Below, piece by piece: positions 10,051 to 32,175 of a stretch of DNA of 46,762 nucleotides (its first letter is position 1; the number at the start of each line of letters is the position of its first letter). The translations under genes and the position numbers were made by a program. A model generated the notes under the pieces. That model saw only the letters and a list, made by a program, of their open reading frames with translations, ran no database searches and was not told where the DNA came from. The stretch comes from Candidatus Frackibacter sp. WG13 (GTDB lineage: Bacteria; Bacillota; Halanaerobiia; Halobacteroidales; Acetohalobiaceae): assembly GCF_900114655.1 (NCBI RefSeq), contig NZ_FOTT01000026.1:1-46762 (forward strand), given 5' to 3'.

Positions 10051-11850
10051 ATGAACGGCTGGATGGGACAGATTTTACGAATTAATCTCACAGAGGAAAC
10101 AGTAAATGTGGAAGAATTAGACCAAACATTAGCTAAAGATTATATTGGCGCTCGTGGCTTAGGAACTAAGATTTTTTGTGATGAAGTTGAACCAACGGTT
10201 GACCCATTAGCGCATGAGAATAAACTCATTTTTGCTACTGGGCCTTTGACAGGAACAGCAGCGGTATCAGGAAGTAGATATAATGTAGTAACTAAGTCGC
10301 CTTTAACTGGCACAATAGCTGCATCTAATTCGGGAGGCTACTTTCCATCAGAATTAAAATATGCTGGTTATGATGTTGTTATCTTTGAAGGAAAAGCTTC
10401 ACGACCGGTTTATATAGTGATTGATGATGACCAAGTAAAGATTGAGTCTGCTGAAGAACTATGGGGGGAGACTATTCTAGAAACAGATAATCAATTAAGA
10501 GCAAAATATGGTGATAACTTCAGGATTGCTGCTATTGGTCCAGCAGGAGAGAACTTAGTTAAGTTTGCTTGTATAATGAATGATCGTGAGAGGGCTGCTG
10601 GTCGCTCCGGGGTAGGAGCAGTAATGGGTTCTAAAAATTTAAAAGCGGTAATAGTGCGTGGAACGCAAGGAGTTAGAGTGGCTAACAAGGGCAAATTTAA
10701 AGATGTATTACGTAATTGCTTGGGTAAGATTAAAGAGTCGGGAGTAACTAACGAAGGCTTGCCTGCTTTAGGTACAGCGGTATTAGTTAATATTATCAGT
10801 GAACATGGAAATTTGCCTACACGTAATTTTCAGAAAGGCAATTTTGAAGGAGCGGAACAAGTTAGTGGTGAAGCTTTAGCAGATGAATTATTAGTAAAAA
10901 ATAAAGCATGTGCCGGTTGTCCGATAGGCTGTGGAAGAGTATCTTTGGTGCCGGATGGCGAATATAAAGGTTTTGGAGAAGGTCCAGAGTATGAAACCCT
11001 TTGGGCTTTTGGACCTGACTGTGGCATTGATAATTTAGAAGCTATTACTAAAGATAACTTTATCTGTAATGAATTAGGATTAGACACAATTACTATGGGA
11101 ACGACTATTGCTTGTGCTATGGAAATGTATGAAGAAGGTATAATTACTAAGGATGAGCTTGGTTTAGAATTAGAATTTGGTAATGCACAAGCTATGGTAG
11201 AGGCAGTTAAATTAACAGGAACTAGAGAAGGGATCGGAGACTTATTAGCAGAAGGTTCTTATCGCTTAGCTGAAAAATATGACTGCCCTGAATACTCTAT
11301 GAGTAGTAAGAAACAAGAATACCCAGCCTATGATCCAAGAGGATCACAAGGGATGGGGTTAGAATATGCTACTTCTAATCGCGGTGGCTGTCACGTAAGA
11401 GGTTATCTAACTTCACCTGAAATACTGGGAATTCCTGAAGCTATTGATCCGTTGACTATAGAAGGTAAAGCAGAATGGGTTAAAATTTTCCAAGATCTAA
11501 CCGGAGTAGTTGATGCTAGTGGTATCTGTTTATTTACTACTTTTGCTCTAGGTGGTGGAGATATTCATGAATTATTAGAGGCTGTAACCGGAGTAGGTTA
11601 TACAGAAGAAGAGATGATGAAGGTTGGTGAAAGAATCTGGAATTTAGAAAGACTCTTTAATTACGAAGCCGGTGTAGGTCCAGATGAAGATAAATTAGCT
11701 AAAAGATTAGTAGAAGAACCTCTACCTGAAGGTCCGGCTGAAGGTAAAGTAGTAGGTTTAGAAACGATGTTGGAAGAATACTATCAGCTACGGGGTTGGA
11801 CTCCTGAAGGGGATGTTAAAGAGGAGAAGATAGCTGAGTTAGGGATTTAG
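10051..11850 (+). CDS. aor: tungsten aldehyde ferredoxin oxidoreductase
   Basis: A 599-residue member of the AOR family, which oxidises aldehydes to acids (or reduces acids) with a tungstopterin and one [4Fe-4S] cluster. The cluster ligands are C287, C290, C294 and C493, almost the same numbering as in the Pyrococcus furiosus enzyme. N-terminal domain motifs include GARGLGTK and TGPLTGT. It abuts the ferredoxin gene and is followed by a MoaD-like sulfur carrier needed for the pterin dithiolene. The upstream alcohol dehydrogenase suggests alcohol-aldehyde-acid interconversion with ferredoxin. Confidence 0.95.
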   Translation: MNGWMGQILRINLTEETVNVEELDQTLAKDYIGARGLGTKIFCDEVEPTVDPLAHENKLIFATGPLTGTAAVSGSRYNVVTKSPLTGTIAASNSGGYFPSELKYAGYDVVIFEGKASRPVYIVIDDDQVKIESAEELWGETILETDNQLRAKYGDNFRIAAIGPAGENLVKFACIMNDRERAAGRSGVGAVMGSKNLKAVIVRGTQGVRVANKGKFKDVLRNCLGKIKESGVTNEGLPALGTAVLVNIISEHGNLPTRNFQKGNFEGAEQVSGEALADELLVKNKACAGCPIGCGRVSLVPDGEYKGFGEGPEYETLWAFGPDCGIDNLEAITKDNFICNELGLDTITMGTTIACAMEMYEEGIITKDELGLELEFGNAQAMVEAVKLTGTREGIGDLLAEGSYRLAEKYDCPEYSMSSKKQEYPAYDPRGSQGMGLEYATSNRGGCHVRGYLTSPEILGIPEAIDPLTIEGKAEWVKIFQDLTGVVDASGICLFTTFALGGGDIHELLEAVTGVGYTEEEMMKVGERIWNLERLFNYEAGVGPDEDKLAKRLVEEPLPEGPAEGKVVGLETMLEEYYQLRGWTPEGDVKEEKIAELGI

Positions 11851-11862
11851 GTGATTAATACG

Positions 11863-12129
11863 ATGAAAGTAAAACTTTTAGCTACTTTACGCAATATAAC
11901 TGATTGTAATGAGCTAGAATTGGAAGTAGAGAATATTCAAGAAGTAGTAGAAAAACTAATCGAATTATATGGTGAGGAAATGAAAACAGAATTATTAGAG
12001 TCCGATCAGCTAGATGAAACCATTACTATCTTAGTTAATGGTAGGAATATGTTATATTTAAATGGGTTAAAGACTAAATTAAAGCGCAATGATATAGTAA
12101 CTATCTTTCCACAAGTAGCTGGAGGATAG
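11863..12129 (+). CDS. MoaD/ThiS-family sulfur carrier
   Basis: An 88-residue ubiquitin-fold protein ending in the Gly-Gly tail (PQVAGG) that is thiocarboxylated for molybdo/tungstopterin synthesis. I use the ATG at 11863, with AGGTGA eight bases upstream, over a GTG at 11851 that overlaps the AOR stop. It is the third gene of the AOR operon; dedicated MoaD paralogues next to AOR are common. Its partner MoaE/MoeB is not in this window. Confidence 0.88.
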   Translation: MKVKLLATLRNITDCNELELEVENIQEVVEKLIELYGEEMKTELLESDQLDETITILVNGRNMLYLNGLKTKLKRNDIVTIFPQVAGG

Positions 12130-17202: not shown

Positions 17203-18753
17203 ATGGGAATTGAAACAAAATTAGATGAACTTCGTAAGCGGAAAGAAGAGGCACGGCAAGGTGGAGGTAAGGAAAGAATCAAGAAGCAGCATAGGAAAGG
17301 GAAGATGACGGCTAGAGAAAGAATTGATTTCTTATTAGACGAAAATAGTTTTGTTGAGATTAATTCTTTTGTTGAGCCAAGATATGCAGAACATGGGATG
17401 GAAGATAAGAAGGCAGTCGGTGACGGGGTAGTTACTGGATACGGAACGATTGATGGTCGTTTGGTCTATCTTTTTGCGCAGGACTTTACAGTGATGGGTG
17501 GTTCACTAGGTGCAGCTCATGCAGAAAAGATCTGTAAAGTAATGGATATGGCAAATGAGATGGGAGCACCCTTTATTGGTTTGAATGATTCTGGTGGTGC
17601 AAGGATCCAAGAAGGTGTAGAGGCTTTAAATGGATTTGGAGAAATATTTAGACGGAATGCACTTATGTCGGGTGTAGTACCACAGATTTCTGTGATTTTA
17701 GGACCTTGTGCCGGAGGAGCAGTCTATTCACCAGCATTAACTGATTTTGTCTTTATGGTTGAAAGCACAAGTAAGATGTTCTTAACTGGTCCGAGTGTAA
17801 TTAAATCGGTTACAGGGGAAGAAGTTTCAGCAGAAGAATTAGGTGGTGTTGGTGCTCATGGACAATTAAGTGGTGTAGCTCATTTCACAACTCAAAATGA
17901 AGAAGAATGTCTTATGCAGATTAGAGAGTTATTAAGTTACTTGCCAGCTAACAATATGGAGGACCCACCAGAGATAGAAGATTATCATATCGACTTAAAA
18001 GAGAACGATCAATTAGAGGATATTATACCTGGCAACCCTAATGAAGCTTATGATATGAAAGAAGTCATTAATCATATTATTGACCCAGGTACTTTCTTTG
18101 AAGTGCAAGCAGATTATGCCAGGAATATTGTAGTAGGATTAGCTAGACTTAATGGTAAATCTGTAGGTATTATAGCTAACCAACCTAAATATAAGGCAGG
18201 ATGTTTAGATATCAATGCTTCGGATAAGGCAGCTAGATTTATTAGGATGTGTGATAGTTTTAATATTCCGCTATTAACATTAGTTGATGTGCCAGGTTTC
18301 TTACCAGGAGTTAGTCAAGAATATAACGGTATTATTCGTCATGGTGCTAAGATGCTTTATGCTTACACAGAAGCCTCGGTGCCAAAGGTTACTCTAGTAA
18401 CTAGGAAGGCTTATGGTGGGGGATATATTGCTATGTGTAGTAAGTCGATGAATGCTGATTTAGTACTTGCTTGGCCAACTGCAGAGATAGCAGTTATGGG
18501 GCCGCGCGGTGCAGCAAATATAATCTATCGTAAAGAGATTAATAATGCCGATAACTCAGAAGAAATATTAGAAAAGAAGGTTGCAGAGTATAGAGATAAG
18601 TTTGCAAACCCTTATGTCGCAGCTCAAAGAGGGATTGTTAATGATGTAATTGAATTTAAAAAGACTACAATTCGTTTGGCTAATGCTTTAGAGATGTTAC
18701 AGAGTAAAAGGGTTGACCGTCCAGAAAGAAAACATGGGAATATGCCTCTGTAA
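17203..18753 (+). CDS. mmdA: carboxyltransferase (alpha) subunit of a biotin-dependent acyl-CoA decarboxylase, MmdA type
   Basis: A 516-residue carboxyltransferase of the methylmalonyl-CoA decarboxylase alpha / propionyl-CoA carboxylase beta family, cytosolic. Visible hallmarks: GLNDSGGARIQEGV, GPCAGGAVYSPALTDF and AYGGGYIAMCSKSMNADL. The next ORF begins with an OadG/MmdD-type membrane subunit, which points to a sodium-pumping decarboxylase rather than a carboxylase. The biotin carrier (MmdC) and sodium-translocating MmdB subunits that should follow are absent here. The substrate could be methylmalonyl-CoA, malonyl-CoA or a similar acyl-CoA; the sequence alone does not decide. Confidence 0.88.
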   Translation: MGIETKLDELRKRKEEARQGGGKERIKKQHRKGKMTARERIDFLLDENSFVEINSFVEPRYAEHGMEDKKAVGDGVVTGYGTIDGRLVYLFAQDFTVMGGSLGAAHAEKICKVMDMANEMGAPFIGLNDSGGARIQEGVEALNGFGEIFRRNALMSGVVPQISVILGPCAGGAVYSPALTDFVFMVESTSKMFLTGPSVIKSVTGEEVSAEELGGVGAHGQLSGVAHFTTQNEEECLMQIRELLSYLPANNMEDPPEIEDYHIDLKENDQLEDIIPGNPNEAYDMKEVINHIIDPGTFFEVQADYARNIVVGLARLNGKSVGIIANQPKYKAGCLDINASDKAARFIRMCDSFNIPLLTLVDVPGFLPGVSQEYNGIIRHGAKMLYAYTEASVPKVTLVTRKAYGGGYIAMCSKSMNADLVLAWPTAEIAVMGPRGAANIIYRKEINNADNSEEILEKKVAEYRDKFANPYVAAQRGIVNDVIEFKKTTIRLANALEMLQSKRVDRPERKHGNMPL

Positions 18754-18812: not shown

Positions 18813-20759
18813 ATGGAAAACTTAGGGTTTGGCTTACAAATTACTGTGATTGGGATGGTAACGGTTGTTGTTTCATTAGGAGGGTTAGCGTTAATAATTA
18901 AACTTCTTGAAAGAATTTTTCATGAAAAGCCTGATAAACGACAAAATAATAGTATGAGAAGTCAGAGTAAAGAAAGGACGAATGAAGTAACTGTCAATAA
19001 TCAAAAGGAAGCAAAAAAGATAACTGCTAAAAAGATAGCGGCTATTAGTGGAGCAATCTCAGCTTATTTAGATGCAGAACAAGGTGAATTTGTTATTACA
19101 TCTATTAAATCTGCATCTATCAACTGGAGTTTAAGCGGCAGACAGAGATTATTAGCACAACAGTTCGGTGGTGGATTCGGTGGTAAGGCCGGTTTAAATC
19201 CAGAGACTCCGATTGCTGTAGCTTTATCTAAATTGGTATTAGGTCGTCCGGTGAAGATCACTTATACTCGTGCTGAAGAGTTCGAATGTGCAACTGCACG
19301 ACCAGGAATTATTGCTAGATTCAAAACAGGTGTAAAAGAAGATGGAGATATTATTGCTCAAGAGATAGAGTATATTTGGGATGGTGGAGCATATAACGAT
19401 TATACAGTAAATGTAAGTAAGACTGGAGGATATTCTTGTGCTGGGCCGTATGAAATTCCAAATGTAAAGGCTGATTCATACTGTGTTTATACTAACCGTC
19501 CAGTAACAGGTGCATATCGTGGTTTTGGTATGTGCGAAATTCACTGGGGGATTGAGCAGCATATAGAGAATATCGCTGAAGATTTAGGATTAACACCGTT
19601 AGAAATGAGATTAAAGAATGCTCTTAAAGATGGTTCTAAGAACGTAACCGGTGAAGAATTATCAGATGTAGGATATAGTGAAACTCTTGAACTAGCTGCT
19701 GAACAGATTGAGTTAGACGAAAAAGAGGAGACAGCAAATCCTACCAAAGTTAGAGGAAAAGGAATTGCTGGAGGTTACAAAGGACCTTCGACTCCTCCGA
19801 ATGCAGCTTCTAGTGCACTTATTCAGGTTTTAGCAGATGGTTCTATCAATCTATTAATCACTGCTACTGATATTGGACAGGGAGCTTATACTGCTTTAGC
19901 GCAGATGGCTGCAGAAGCATTAGGAGTTTCTATAGATACTATTAATGTTTCTACTCCAAATACAGATTATACTCCTTATGAATGGCAGACAGTAGGTAGT
20001 AGAACTACATTTTCAGTAGGAAATGCTATCATTAACGCTGCTGAAGATGCCAGAGAGCAACTATTCGATTATGCATCTGAGGATTTAGGAGTAGATGAGG
20101 AAGACTTAGATATGGAAGAGGGCATTATCTTTGATACTACTGACCCAGATAATACTGATAAGCAAGCTCCAATTAGTAAGTATGCTATCGGTATAATGTA
20201 TGAAGACGGTAGTGGTCGTGGTGGACAAGTTATCGGTCGTGGTGTATATATTCCAGAAGGCGTAAGTAATCTTGATGAAAATGGTCAAGGTAGAACTGTA
20301 AATCATTGGACTTATGGTTGTCATGCTGCTGAAGTTGAAGTAGACACAGAAACAGGTCAAGTAGAAGTATTAAATATGGTTACTACTTTTGACGTAGGTA
20401 AGGCGATTAACCCAGAGTTAGTAGAAGGACAGTTAGAAGGAGGATTAGTCCAAGGATTTGGTACAGCTCTATTTGAAGAGTTTGTATATGACGGAGGTAA
20501 GCTTCTGAACAAATCTTTTGTTGACTACAAGATTCCAACTGCTATGGATATACCAAATATTGAAACTAATATAGTAGAGAATGCATTAGGACATGGTCCG
20601 TTTGGAGCTCGAGGAGTAGCTGAACCAGCAATGATTCCAGCTGCCCCAGCTATTGCTAATGCTGTTTATGATGCGATTGGTGTTAGAGTGAAGAGTATGC
20701 CGATCACACCAGAGAAAATTCTTGCAGCATTGAAAGAAAAAGAAGCGAACGATAATTAA
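18813..20759 (+). CDS. chimera: OadG/MmdD subunit joined to C-terminal part of a molybdenum hydroxylase
   Basis: A 648-residue ORF with two unrelated parts. Residues 1 to about 113 are a complete OadG/MmdD-like subunit: one membrane helix (about 6-30), a charged linker, and the end motif AISAYLDAEQGEFVITSIK...INWSLSGRQ. From about residue 117 (QFGGGFGGK) it is the C-terminal 530 residues of a xanthine dehydrogenase-family molybdopterin subunit, including AYRGFGMCE and GVAEPAMIPAAPAIANA with the expected catalytic Glu. The hydroxylase hammerhead domain and first 200 or so residues are missing. Likely product of a deletion removing mmdC, mmdB and the hydroxylase start, or of a misassembly. I would not expect either activity to be normal. 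Confidence 0.85.
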   Translation: MENLGFGLQITVIGMVTVVVSLGGLALIIKLLERIFHEKPDKRQNNSMRSQSKERTNEVTVNNQKEAKKITAKKIAAISGAISAYLDAEQGEFVITSIKSASINWSLSGRQRLLAQQFGGGFGGKAGLNPETPIAVALSKLVLGRPVKITYTRAEEFECATARPGIIARFKTGVKEDGDIIAQEIEYIWDGGAYNDYTVNVSKTGGYSCAGPYEIPNVKADSYCVYTNRPVTGAYRGFGMCEIHWGIEQHIENIAEDLGLTPLEMRLKNALKDGSKNVTGEELSDVGYSETLELAAEQIELDEKEETANPTKVRGKGIAGGYKGPSTPPNAASSALIQVLADGSINLLITATDIGQGAYTALAQMAAEALGVSIDTINVSTPNTDYTPYEWQTVGSRTTFSVGNAIINAAEDAREQLFDYASEDLGVDEEDLDMEEGIIFDTTDPDNTDKQAPISKYAIGIMYEDGSGRGGQVIGRGVYIPEGVSNLDENGQGRTVNHWTYGCHAAEVEVDTETGQVEVLNMVTTFDVGKAINPELVEGQLEGGLVQGFGTALFEEFVYDGGKLLNKSFVDYKIPTAMDIPNIETNIVENALGHGPFGARGVAEPAMIPAAPAIANAVYDAIGVRVKSMPITPEKILAALKEKEANDN

Positions 20760-20970: not shown

Positions 20971-22368
20971 ATGTCAGCAGAGACTAACGTAGAGACAGAA
21001 ATTGAAACAAATGACAATGGAATGATCTATGGTTTAGATGATGTCCCAAAACCTTTTAGTAAAACACTAGGTTTAAGTATTCAAGCAATTTTAACTATGT
21101 TTGGAGCAACAGTAGCCGTGCCTTTATTAGTAGGTCCTAAATTAGGATTAGGTCCGGTTCAGATGGCTATTTTAGTGAGTGCTTGTTTTATTGCAGCAGG
21201 CTTAGCAACTTTAGTACAGGTTAACTTCGGAACTCGTTTGCCTATTATTCAGGGAACTTCTTTCTCTTTCTTAGCCCCGTTCTTTGCCATAATTGCTACT
21301 GTTGATGGTGGTGGAGCTGAAACGATGGCTTATATTAGTGGTGCAGTTATTTCAGGAGCATTAGTTGAGGCTTTTATTGGATTTTCAGGTTTAATGGGAG
21401 TTTTGAGAAAGTATATTACGCCAGTAGTTATTGGACCGACTATTATGTTAATTGGATTAGGATTATATGAGGCAGGTGCCCCGCAAGCAGGTCAGAATTG
21501 GATTATTTCTATTATAGTTATTTTAGCAGTCTTCTATTTCTCTTTAATGTCAAAAAGTAAGAAACTTAGTCTGTTCCCAATTTTAATAGCGGTAGTTATA
21601 GGGTATATTGTGGCGTTATTTATGACTTTAACTGGAATTTTAGAACCAGGAATGCCAGGTTATGTAGACTTTGCTCCAGTAACTAATGCGCCTTGGTTTA
21701 GAGATCCAAGATCATTAATCTTCCCTTGGGGAATGCCAAAGTTTAAGTTATCATTCTTCTTCGCTATCTTAGCTGCTTATTTAGCTTCAGCTATTGAATC
21801 TTTTGGTGATTACTTCTCTATGGCAGATGTAGCTGGTGCTTCAGAACCGACTACTAAGCAGATTAATCGAGGAATTGGTTCAGAAGGTATAGGTTGCTTA
21901 TTAGCTGGTTTAGTTGGTGCTTTTGCTAATACTAGTTATACAGAAAATATCGGTTTAGTAGGGCTGACTAAAGTAGCTAGTAGATATGTAACAACTGTAG
22001 CAGCAGTTCTATTGATAGTTTTAGGATTATTTGCTAAAACAGGAGCTTTAGTAGCTACTATTCCTGGACCAGTAGTAGGTGGAGTTTATTGTGCATTATT
22101 TGGTTTAATTGCAGCTGTAGGACTTAGTAACTTAATGAAAGCTGACATGGGATCACAAAGAAATCAGATGATTGTCGGTTTTGCATTATTTATGGGCTTA
22201 AGTCTTCCAGTTTATTTTGGTAATAATCCATTAGAACTTCCAAATGCTCAAGTGTTAGCTGAAATTGTTAATACAATTGGAACTACAGGTATGGGAGTAA
22301 CTGCAATTCTTGCCTTAATCTTAGATAATGTAATTCCTGGTACAGATGAGGAAAGAGGAATTGCATAA
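20971..22368 (+). CDS. NCS2-family uracil/xanthine permease
   Basis: A 465-residue membrane protein with 12 or more hydrophobic segments. Signatures of the nucleobase:cation symporter-2 family are clear: IQGTSFSFLAPFFA (TM3) and ESFGDYFSMADVAG (TM8), followed by NRGIGSEGIGCLLAGL and FANTSYTENIGLVGLT. It imports a purine or pyrimidine base. It opens the catabolic cluster and precedes the pucR-like regulator. AGGGGGGTT precedes the ATG. Family members for uracil, xanthine and urate are hard to tell apart by eye. Confidence 0.92.
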   Translation: MSAETNVETEIETNDNGMIYGLDDVPKPFSKTLGLSIQAILTMFGATVAVPLLVGPKLGLGPVQMAILVSACFIAAGLATLVQVNFGTRLPIIQGTSFSFLAPFFAIIATVDGGGAETMAYISGAVISGALVEAFIGFSGLMGVLRKYITPVVIGPTIMLIGLGLYEAGAPQAGQNWIISIIVILAVFYFSLMSKSKKLSLFPILIAVVIGYIVALFMTLTGILEPGMPGYVDFAPVTNAPWFRDPRSLIFPWGMPKFKLSFFFAILAAYLASAIESFGDYFSMADVAGASEPTTKQINRGIGSEGIGCLLAGLVGAFANTSYTENIGLVGLTKVASRYVTTVAAVLLIVLGLFAKTGALVATIPGPVVGGVYCALFGLIAAVGLSNLMKADMGSQRNQMIVGFALFMGLSLPVYFGNNPLELPNAQVLAEIVNTIGTTGMGVTAILALILDNVIPGTDEERGIA

Positions 22369-22627: not shown

Positions 22628-24337
22628 ATGCCCAAAGATATTGGAATTACAGTTAGAGAAGCTTTGCAACTGAAGCCATTAAAGAATGTAAAGGTGGTAG
22701 CTGGCCAAAAAGGTCTAGATAAGAATATTAAATATATTAATGTGATGGAAGTACCTGATATTTTAGATTGGGTCAAAGAGGGTGAGTTATTATTGACCAC
22801 TACTTACTCAATGAAAGATGATTTAGAAGCATTAAATAATCTAATTCCTAGATTGGCAAAGAGTAATTTAGCTGGCTTAGGTATTAAACCAGGTCGATAT
22901 ATTGAAGAAATTCCCGAAAATATGATTGAACAAGCTAATGAATTAGGGTTTCCTTTATTAGAATTGCCTTATGAAGTATCCTTTTCTGAACTGATGGAAC
23001 CAGTTTTAAGTGAGATATTAAATGAACAAGCAAACTTCCTGAAGATGTCATTAGATATGCATAATTATCTAATGGAGGTAGTTTTAGACGGGGGAGGCCT
23101 ATCGGAGATAGCAGATACTTTAGCTCGTTTGATTAAGTATCCAGTTGCTATTGTTGACCCTAGGTTTAAAGTTCTAGCTTTTGCTTCTGGGGATATTTCT
23201 GAAATAGAGGTTGATCTATTTGTTGGAAGTGGTGATGACCAGCATGCTAGTGATTACTTAGCTGAAGAATTGATTAGGAAAGATAGTATAGTAGGACGTT
23301 TTAAACGAACTAAGGTAGAGATTGATGAAAAAGAGATTTATCAGATGTCGATTCCAATTGTAGGTGGCGGAAAGCTAAGAGGACATCTCTTTGTTTGGGA
23401 GTTAAATGAAGAATTAAAAAGGGCTGACTTAATGGCTATCGAGCGTTCTTCAACTGTAGCGGCCTTAGAAATTATAAATCAACAAGCTATCTTTGAAGTA
23501 GAGAGGAAATATCATAATGAGTTGCTTTATGAGATTATTTCAGGGCGGTTCGATTCGGAGGCTACTATTATTGAAAGGGCACATTCGATTGGCTGGCATT
23601 TAGATAAAACCTATAGTTTGCTTTTGTTCGATTTGACTGATGGACAGAAGAATTCTAATAATGACCAAAAAAAGTTCCAAGAATTAAAGTCTAATCTTTT
23701 GTCTGAATTAAATTTATACTTAAAAAGTAATTATCCGGAGGTTATCTTAGGTGATCGAGGTTCAAATATTATTTTAATGTACCCAATTGAATCACTTTTA
23801 GAAAAAGAGTTGTCTGAGGAAGCTATCAAGGATAGAATTAGAAAGTTTGCAAAGAAATTATTAAAGATAAGCCAGAGAGTAGTTAAACATGATATTATTG
23901 TCGGTATCAGTAATTATTATGAAAGTATAGAAAAGATTCAAGATAGTTATGAAGAAGCTAATAGTGCTTTGCAAGTAGCTAATGTCATTAAACAAGAGGA
24001 CGATAATATTATCTTTTTTGAAGATTTAGGTGTCTATCGTTTATTATATAATCTAGATTTGAGCGAAATAGATTCTTTTTTGCAAGATACAATTCTACCA
24101 TTAATGCAGTATGATAAGAAACATAATACAGAATTTGTGAAGACTCTTGAGCAATACTTTATCTGTAACGGAAATCTCAAAAAGATGGCAGACAATTTGT
24201 TCCTACACTATAATAGTGTCCTATATCGAGTTGAACGTATCCAAGAAATTATGGATATTGACTTAAATAACCATGAACAACGTCTTAGTTTAGAAGTTGG
24301 TTTGAAGTTATTAGACTTTAATAAAGACAACTTGTAA
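22628..24337 (+). CDS. pucR: PucR-family transcriptional regulator
   Basis: A 569-residue regulator with the N-terminal PucR domain (about 8-130; VMEVPDILDWVKEGELLLTT), a GGDEF-like/CdaR middle segment, and the C-terminal PucR-type HTH (LKKMADNLFLHYNSVLYRVER). PucR of Bacillus controls purine degradation genes. The gene lies between the nucleobase permease and the allHFG genes and is the likely pathway-specific activator. GAGGAGG lies seven bases before the ATG. Confidence 0.9.
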   Translation: MPKDIGITVREALQLKPLKNVKVVAGQKGLDKNIKYINVMEVPDILDWVKEGELLLTTTYSMKDDLEALNNLIPRLAKSNLAGLGIKPGRYIEEIPENMIEQANELGFPLLELPYEVSFSELMEPVLSEILNEQANFLKMSLDMHNYLMEVVLDGGGLSEIADTLARLIKYPVAIVDPRFKVLAFASGDISEIEVDLFVGSGDDQHASDYLAEELIRKDSIVGRFKRTKVEIDEKEIYQMSIPIVGGGKLRGHLFVWELNEELKRADLMAIERSSTVAALEIINQQAIFEVERKYHNELLYEIISGRFDSEATIIERAHSIGWHLDKTYSLLLFDLTDGQKNSNNDQKKFQELKSNLLSELNLYLKSNYPEVILGDRGSNIILMYPIESLLEKELSEEAIKDRIRKFAKKLLKISQRVVKHDIIVGISNYYESIEKIQDSYEEANSALQVANVIKQEDDNIIFFEDLGVYRLLYNLDLSEIDSFLQDTILPLMQYDKKHNTEFVKTLEQYFICNGNLKKMADNLFLHYNSVLYRVERIQEIMDIDLNNHEQRLSLEVGLKLLDFNKDNL

Positions 24338-31203: not shown

Positions 31204-32175
31204 ATGACAAAGAGAATTGCAGTAGCGTTGGGAGGAAATGCGATATTACAGGCTGGACAGGAAGGTACTGCACAAGAACAACTGACTAATGTTAGGAATG
31301 CTTGTGAGCAGATAGCTAACTTAATAGAGAATGGTTACGAAGTAGTAGTAAGTCATGGAAATGGTCCGCAAGTAGGAAGTCTTTTAATTCAAAACGAAGC
31401 AGCTAGTGATGAAGTGCCACCGATGCCTTTAGAAATTTGTGGTGCACAAACGCAAGGGCAGATTGGATATATGATGCAGCAATCTTTAGGAAATGTTTTT
31501 AGAAAATTGGGAATAAATAAGAATGTGCTTACTACAGTGACTCAGGTAGTTGTTGAAAAAGATGATGAAGCATTTGATAATCCTACTAAGCCAGTTGGTC
31601 CTTTTTATTCCGAAGCTGAGGCTAAGCGAGCAATGGACGAGAAAGATGAGGTTTGGATAGAAGATAGTGGTCGAGGATGGAGAAAAGTTGTTCCGTCACC
31701 TGTACCACAAAAGATTGTAGAAACAGAAGCAATTAAAGAATTAATTGCTAATGATAATGTTATTATTGCTTCTGGTGGTGGAGGGATTCCAGTAACTGAA
31801 GATAAAAATGGTCAGTTAACAGGAGTTGAAGCTGTAATTGATAAGGATTTAGCTACTCGTAAACTAGCTTAAGAAGTAGATGCGGATATTCTAATGATTC
31901 TAACAGATGTACCTAATGTAGCAATTAACTTTGGAACACCAGACCAGAAAAATTTAGGTACGCTAACTGTTGAAGAGATGGAAGAATATAAAGCCGAAGG
32001 CCATTTTGGAACAGGGAGTATGGGACCAAAAGTACAAGCAGCATTAGATTTTGTTAATAACGGTGGAGAAAGAGCAATTATTACTTCTCTAGACCAAGCA
32101 TTAGAAGCTATTGAGAACGGATTAGGCACACAAGTTCATGGCGATGAAGTAGAAGAAACAAATATGATTGCCTAA
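31204..32175 (+). pseudogene. allK: carbamate kinase interrupted by an in-frame TAA
   Basis: Conceptual 323-codon carbamate kinase (carbamoyl phosphate + ADP to ATP + carbamate). Both halves are well conserved: ALGGNAILQAGQEGT and VSHGNGPQVGSLLIQNEAA in the first, GGGGIPV before the break, then ILTDVPNVAINFGTPDQK and EGHFGTGSMGPKVQAALDFV. The single defect is TAA at 31870-31872, where the family usually has Glu or Gln (LA-x-EVDAD), so one base change (for example GAA to TAA) explains it. Everything else is in one frame. It is either a recent nonsense mutation or a sequencing error. In this cluster it corresponds to AllK, giving the ATP of the pathway. Confidence 0.9.

Follow-up and report, generated by a model that had tools for sequence, protein, structure and literature searches.

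An in-frame fusion of sodium-pump decarboxylase and molybdenum hydroxylase genes that is probably the scar of a recent 8.6 kb deletion

The window analyzed here (the whole stretch of 46,762 nucleotides from Candidatus Frackibacter sp. WG13) contains a gene at positions 18813-20759, a single uninterrupted reading frame whose translation of 648 amino acids begins as one protein and ends as another. The frame is present in one copy in the genome, on contig 32 of an assembly of 2.77 Mb in 48 contigs with a rated completeness of 99.99%. The features of the locus that bear on its interpretation, many of them compared with a genome of the same family (G002), are as follows.

17203-18753, + strand: mmdA-like carboxyltransferase subunit gene, intact, its decarboxylase partners gone (Pfam Carboxyl_trans, E 4e-200)
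18813-20759, + strand: fusion reading frame, 648 aa (reading frame and Pfam)
18813-19163, + strand: OadG/MmdD part, residues 1-117 (OAD_gamma; 44% amino acid identity to G002 oadG; base alignment)
19164-19166, + strand: junction codon 118 (TTC), the probable deletion scar, where the window is 8,640 bp short of the G002 arrangement (base alignment, interval size)
19167-20759, + strand: C-terminal 529 residues of a hydroxylase large subunit, G002 residues 246-774 (92.5% amino acid identity to G002 xdhA; MoCoBD_1 partial, MoCoBD_2)
20971-22368, + strand: UraA/NCS2-type permease gene, retained (named from synteny and recognizable sequence; 77% amino acid identity to G002 over 324 aa, adjoining xdhA likewise)
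22628-24337, + strand: PucR-type regulator gene, retained (named from recognizable sequence; 68% amino acid identity to G002 over the whole length, same order)
31204-32175, + strand: carbamate kinase gene with an in-frame TAA at 31870-31872 (named from recognizable sequence; the intact 322-aa G002 counterpart is 84.5% identical in an alignment that spans the stop)

The domain content agrees with the preliminary description, which had reported an OadG/MmdD subunit running without a stop into the C-terminal part of a xanthine dehydrogenase-type subunit. Pfam places OAD_gamma at residues 6-85 (E 9e-12), with a score of 46 bits against a cut-off of 27 that identifies it as an OadG/MmdD domain, followed by a partial MoCoBD_1 (residues 112-270, 1e-46), whose match begins at profile position 87 of 244, and a complete MoCoBD_2 (residues 300-581, 2e-82). 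The hammerhead domain (PF01315), present in the intact xdhA of G002, was not detected by Pfam in the fusion protein. Because MoCoBD_1 is partial, the protein lacks the two complete MoCoBD domains by which a hydroxylase large subunit would be recognized. The OadG portion had been called complete, which holds for the Pfam domain but not for the protein, since about 35 C-terminal residues of the relative's 154-aa OadG are missing. On the hydroxylase side the first 245 of 774 residues are missing, including the hammerhead.

Base-level alignment to both G002 flanks places the join at codon 118 (19164-19166), in agreement with the interval 19150-19165 (residues 113-118) originally proposed. Identity to G002 oadG stops at 19164 and identity to G002 xdhA begins at 19164/19165, leaving an ambiguity of just 1-2 bases, so that OadG/MmdD residues 1-117 are in frame with hydroxylase residues 245/246-774. 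Preservation of the frame has a one-in-three probability by chance and does not require selection. No useful repeats were found at the junction within the window, and the longest word common to the two breakpoint regions of G002 is 7 bp and is located off the join.

Both parent genes occur in G002 on one contig in the same orientation, 8.6 kb apart, and 8,640 bp separate the matched flanks. Within this interval lie the 3' end of oadG, the biotin carrier gene mmdC, the OAD_beta gene mmdB, an XdhC-family gene, yqeC, a mocA-like gene, yqeB (TIGR03309, 370 bits where the cut-off is 220), a moeA-like gene, the genes for the FAD and [2Fe-2S] subunits and xdhA codons 1-245. Relative to G002, nine whole genes are thus missing from the window, along with the two gene ends. 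The comparison with close relatives proposed in the preliminary description, for mmdC, mmdB and full-length xdhA between these points, found all three in place in G002. The biotin carrier, MmdB and hydroxylase N terminus that had been noted as missing are indeed gone, and the view that the junction marks lost genes is borne out by the relatives, which show the genes that stood there; the loss is larger than had been expected, however, and takes in the FeS and FAD subunits together with five genes of maturation or accessory function.

The order mmdA-oadG-mmdC-mmdB-xdhC-yqeC-mocA-yqeB-...-FAD-FeS-xdhA is shared by G002 and Fuchsiella alkaliacetigena, as far as the two contigs of the latter reach: mmdA to mocA lie on NZ_JALKBZ010000051.1 (15,843 bases), running to near the contig end, and yqeB-FAD-FeS-xdhA-permease-pucR lie on a second contig. 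A more distant genome (G014) has both gene sets adjacent in a different order. Since the arrangement is undivided in G002 and, as far as its contigs reach, in F. alkaliacetigena, we consider that state to be ancestral and the window to be derived. The window is otherwise collinear with G002 on both flanks, over mmdA and all compared genes upstream and, on the downstream side, over uraA, pucR and another dozen genes. The mmdA-like protein is 91-92% identical to its G002 counterpart, aligned in two pieces; its top NCBIfam model is TIGR01117 (mmdA) at 851 bits, which is under the cut-off of 998.8 and does not assign a substrate. Further upstream, an intact reading frame at 10051-12129 resembles, by sequence recognition, an aldehyde ferredoxin oxidoreductase-type tungsten/molybdenum enzyme and is followed by a small MoaD-like frame. 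The permease gene beside xdhA in G002 (L022:6478-7863, minus strand) is interrupted by an in-frame stop that follows codon 324; the window copy is intact at 465 aa.

Whether the lost genes are present elsewhere in the genome was judged by family searches together with a DNA search of the assembly. The 8.6 kb segment had no match anywhere in the assembly, while the same search matched it in each of the four family members used as positive controls (G001, which is F. alkaliacetigena, and G002, G003 and G004), at 64-75% identity outside G002. Family searches of the genome detected no OAD_beta (MmdB), hammerhead, Fer2_2 (the [2Fe-2S] partner), XdhC_CoxI or YqeB (TIGR03309), the last being the marker for a selenium-dependent hydroxylase. 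The sole biotin domain in the genome is at the end of a carboxyltransferase-type protein on contig 6, beside an AccC-like biotin carboxylase, and the OAD_beta and biotin carrier partners that would place this OadG/MmdD in a pump were not found.

These results bear directly on the question of whether the join is an artefact, with the organism still holding the full 8.6 kb and the contig wrongly joined by the assembler or through a chimeric read. An artefact would fit a remnant without decay, a join that is in frame and its presence in a single genome, and in an assembly of 48 contigs small contigs could have been omitted. However, the missing segment would then be expected on another contig, and it is on none; in addition, the words shared by the G002 breakpoints, at 7 bp or less, are far too short for a false assembly overlap, although the ancestral sequence of this strain may have differed from that of G002. 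Breakpoints sharing no word longer than 7 bp and a join ambiguous by 1-2 bases represent the pattern left by homology-free joining, and would have given an assembler nothing to overlap. We consequently regard an artefact as unlikely. The preliminary description had judged a deletion fusion or a misassembly likelier than a new enzyme, and our analyses support that judgment and favor deletion of the two, based on the absence of the 8.6 kb from the whole assembly and of any long breakpoint repeat in G002.

The explanation we consider highly probable is that a genuine, recent and single deletion of about 8.6 kb occurred by recombination with little or no homology. Such a deletion would have removed mmdC, mmdB, xdhC, yqeC, mocA, yqeB, the moeA-like gene and the genes of both the FAD and the FeS subunit, so that codon 117 of oadG came to be followed, in frame, by codon 245/246 of xdhA.

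The state of the hydroxylase remnant provides an indication of the age of the event. None of 47 columns that are invariant among 19 homologs is altered, and with F. alkaliacetigena as outgroup the remnant has 8 amino acid changes of its own compared to 16 in the intact G002 protein. A remnant without lesions is expected if xdhA was whole until recently, and this lack of decay suggests that the deletion is probably recent; it is possibly confined to the strain or to the culture. The OadG part has 20 changes of its own versus 8 in G002 (p = 0.04, in a comparison that covered six genes). A very recent event does not account for this difference, but the signal is weak and we draw no interpretation from it.

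An open frame and conserved columns without lesion would also be seen if the fusion were a functional membrane-anchored protein maintained by selection. The dN/dS of 0.10 between the xdhA part and G002 points in the same direction, though almost all of this divergence must have arisen before the loss. Against this, the fusion was found in none of the 58 other genomes of the class (59 with its own; the species is represented by one genome), the hammerhead and the Mo-site Gln are gone, there is no MmdB for the product to associate with, and the genome has no FeS, FAD, XdhC or YqeB partner. We therefore consider selective maintenance very improbable, and still less credible the more specific proposal that the fusion is made and kept as a new molybdopterin-binding or scaffold protein at the membrane, working without a hammerhead and partner subunits. 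Conservation of the fusion in several independent genomes, which would have pointed to a real protein, was looked for in the same class-wide search and rejected: matches to the junction query begin inside hydroxylase frames of normal length, mostly about 760-930 codons. A literature search for similar fusions produced by deletion in bacterial genomes returned nothing directly useful.

It is also conceivable that the xdhA fragment arrived separately by transfer, beside an mmd operon that had already been lost. The xdhA remnant (19167-20756) has a pS of 0.33 relative to G002, under most of its neighbors (0.44-0.74), a difference that does not separate codon bias from gene exchange. The fdrA-type neighbors, however, also have low pS values (0.44-0.45), and codon bias or slow evolution may suffice as an explanation. 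Moreover, both flanks are collinear with G002, the identity of the xdhA part falls in the order 92% (G002), 77% (F. alkaliacetigena) and 66% (G014), which already suggests that it groups with the rest of the locus, and one deletion accounts for everything. Of the explanations weighed here, we give transfer the least credence.

If the locus has undergone the single deletion that we favor, neither enzyme system is expected to operate. Sodium-pumping decarboxylases of the OadABG/MmdABCD family require a biotin carrier and MmdB, the latter performing decarboxylation and ion transport. The pump is predicted to be dead because MmdB is absent from the genome and the biotin carrier from the locus. The hydroxylase is likewise predicted to be dead because it has lost the hammerhead, MoCoBD_1 up to profile position 86, the conserved Mo-site Gln, the FeS and FAD subunits, XdhC and YqeB. 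The Gln concerned is Gln218 of G002, 31 residues ahead of the Phe in GGGFGG, which falls in the lost part of xdhA and which we take to be the Mo-site residue from its spacing (bovine Gln767 to Phe798). In C. difficile, deletion of yqeB alone abolished the growth benefit from uric acid and severely reduced that from xanthine (PMC11448449). If translated, the fusion would yield an OadG-type membrane segment bearing a partial domain; we infer that such a product would be an inert membrane-anchored fragment, and most likely it does nothing.

Downstream, the cluster includes genes of the permease, PucR and FdrA types and the carbamate kinase gene. Apart from the fusion, the carbamate kinase gene alone was seen to be broken in the comparison with G002, which covered about 8.5-41 kb; the halves of this gene around the TAA stay in one frame, and the stop could be either a nonsense mutation or a sequencing error. 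Two lesions in one catabolic cluster hint at relaxed selection there.

Taken together, the scar looks like ordinary recent gene loss, a new instance of a familiar type of event and not a new enzyme. It illustrates cleanly how a single deletion would strip two unrelated enzyme systems and leave an intact-looking chimeric gene, which an automated annotation might take for a new protein. We predict that this strain can run neither this hydroxylase nor a sodium-pumping decarboxylase for acyl-CoA (or oxaloacetate), while close relatives can.

Compared with OadG/MmdD, the gamma/delta subunit (PF04277) of the Na+-translocating decarboxylases, the fusion is alike in its N-terminal membrane segment and OAD_gamma domain and in its position directly 3' of an mmdA-type gene, but differs in that the C-terminal residues of the subunit are replaced and in that the genome is without MmdB and MmdC. 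Compared with the large subunits of xanthine dehydrogenase and 4-hydroxybenzoyl-CoA reductase (NF043082, TIGR03194), it is alike in MoCoBD_2, in the second part of MoCoBD_1 and in all of the invariant positions of the retained region, but is without the N-terminal third and the FeS and FAD partners. The intact G002 relative of the hydroxylase part has PDB 1rm6 as a known match; even that protein reaches no hydroxylase equivalog cut-off, so that no substrate is assigned. Selenium-dependent molybdenum hydroxylase clusters with yqeB and yqeC are known (PMC2276186, PMC11448449), and G002 and F. alkaliacetigena resemble them in having the hydroxylase with yqeB, yqeC, mocA and xdhC, whereas the genome studied here has lost all of these accessory genes and retains selD. 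The selD gene (L047, contig 19, 7617-8537) has one in-frame TGA, which is probably read as selenocysteine, and its retention suggests that selenium use in general has not been lost, despite the loss of yqeB and yqeC.
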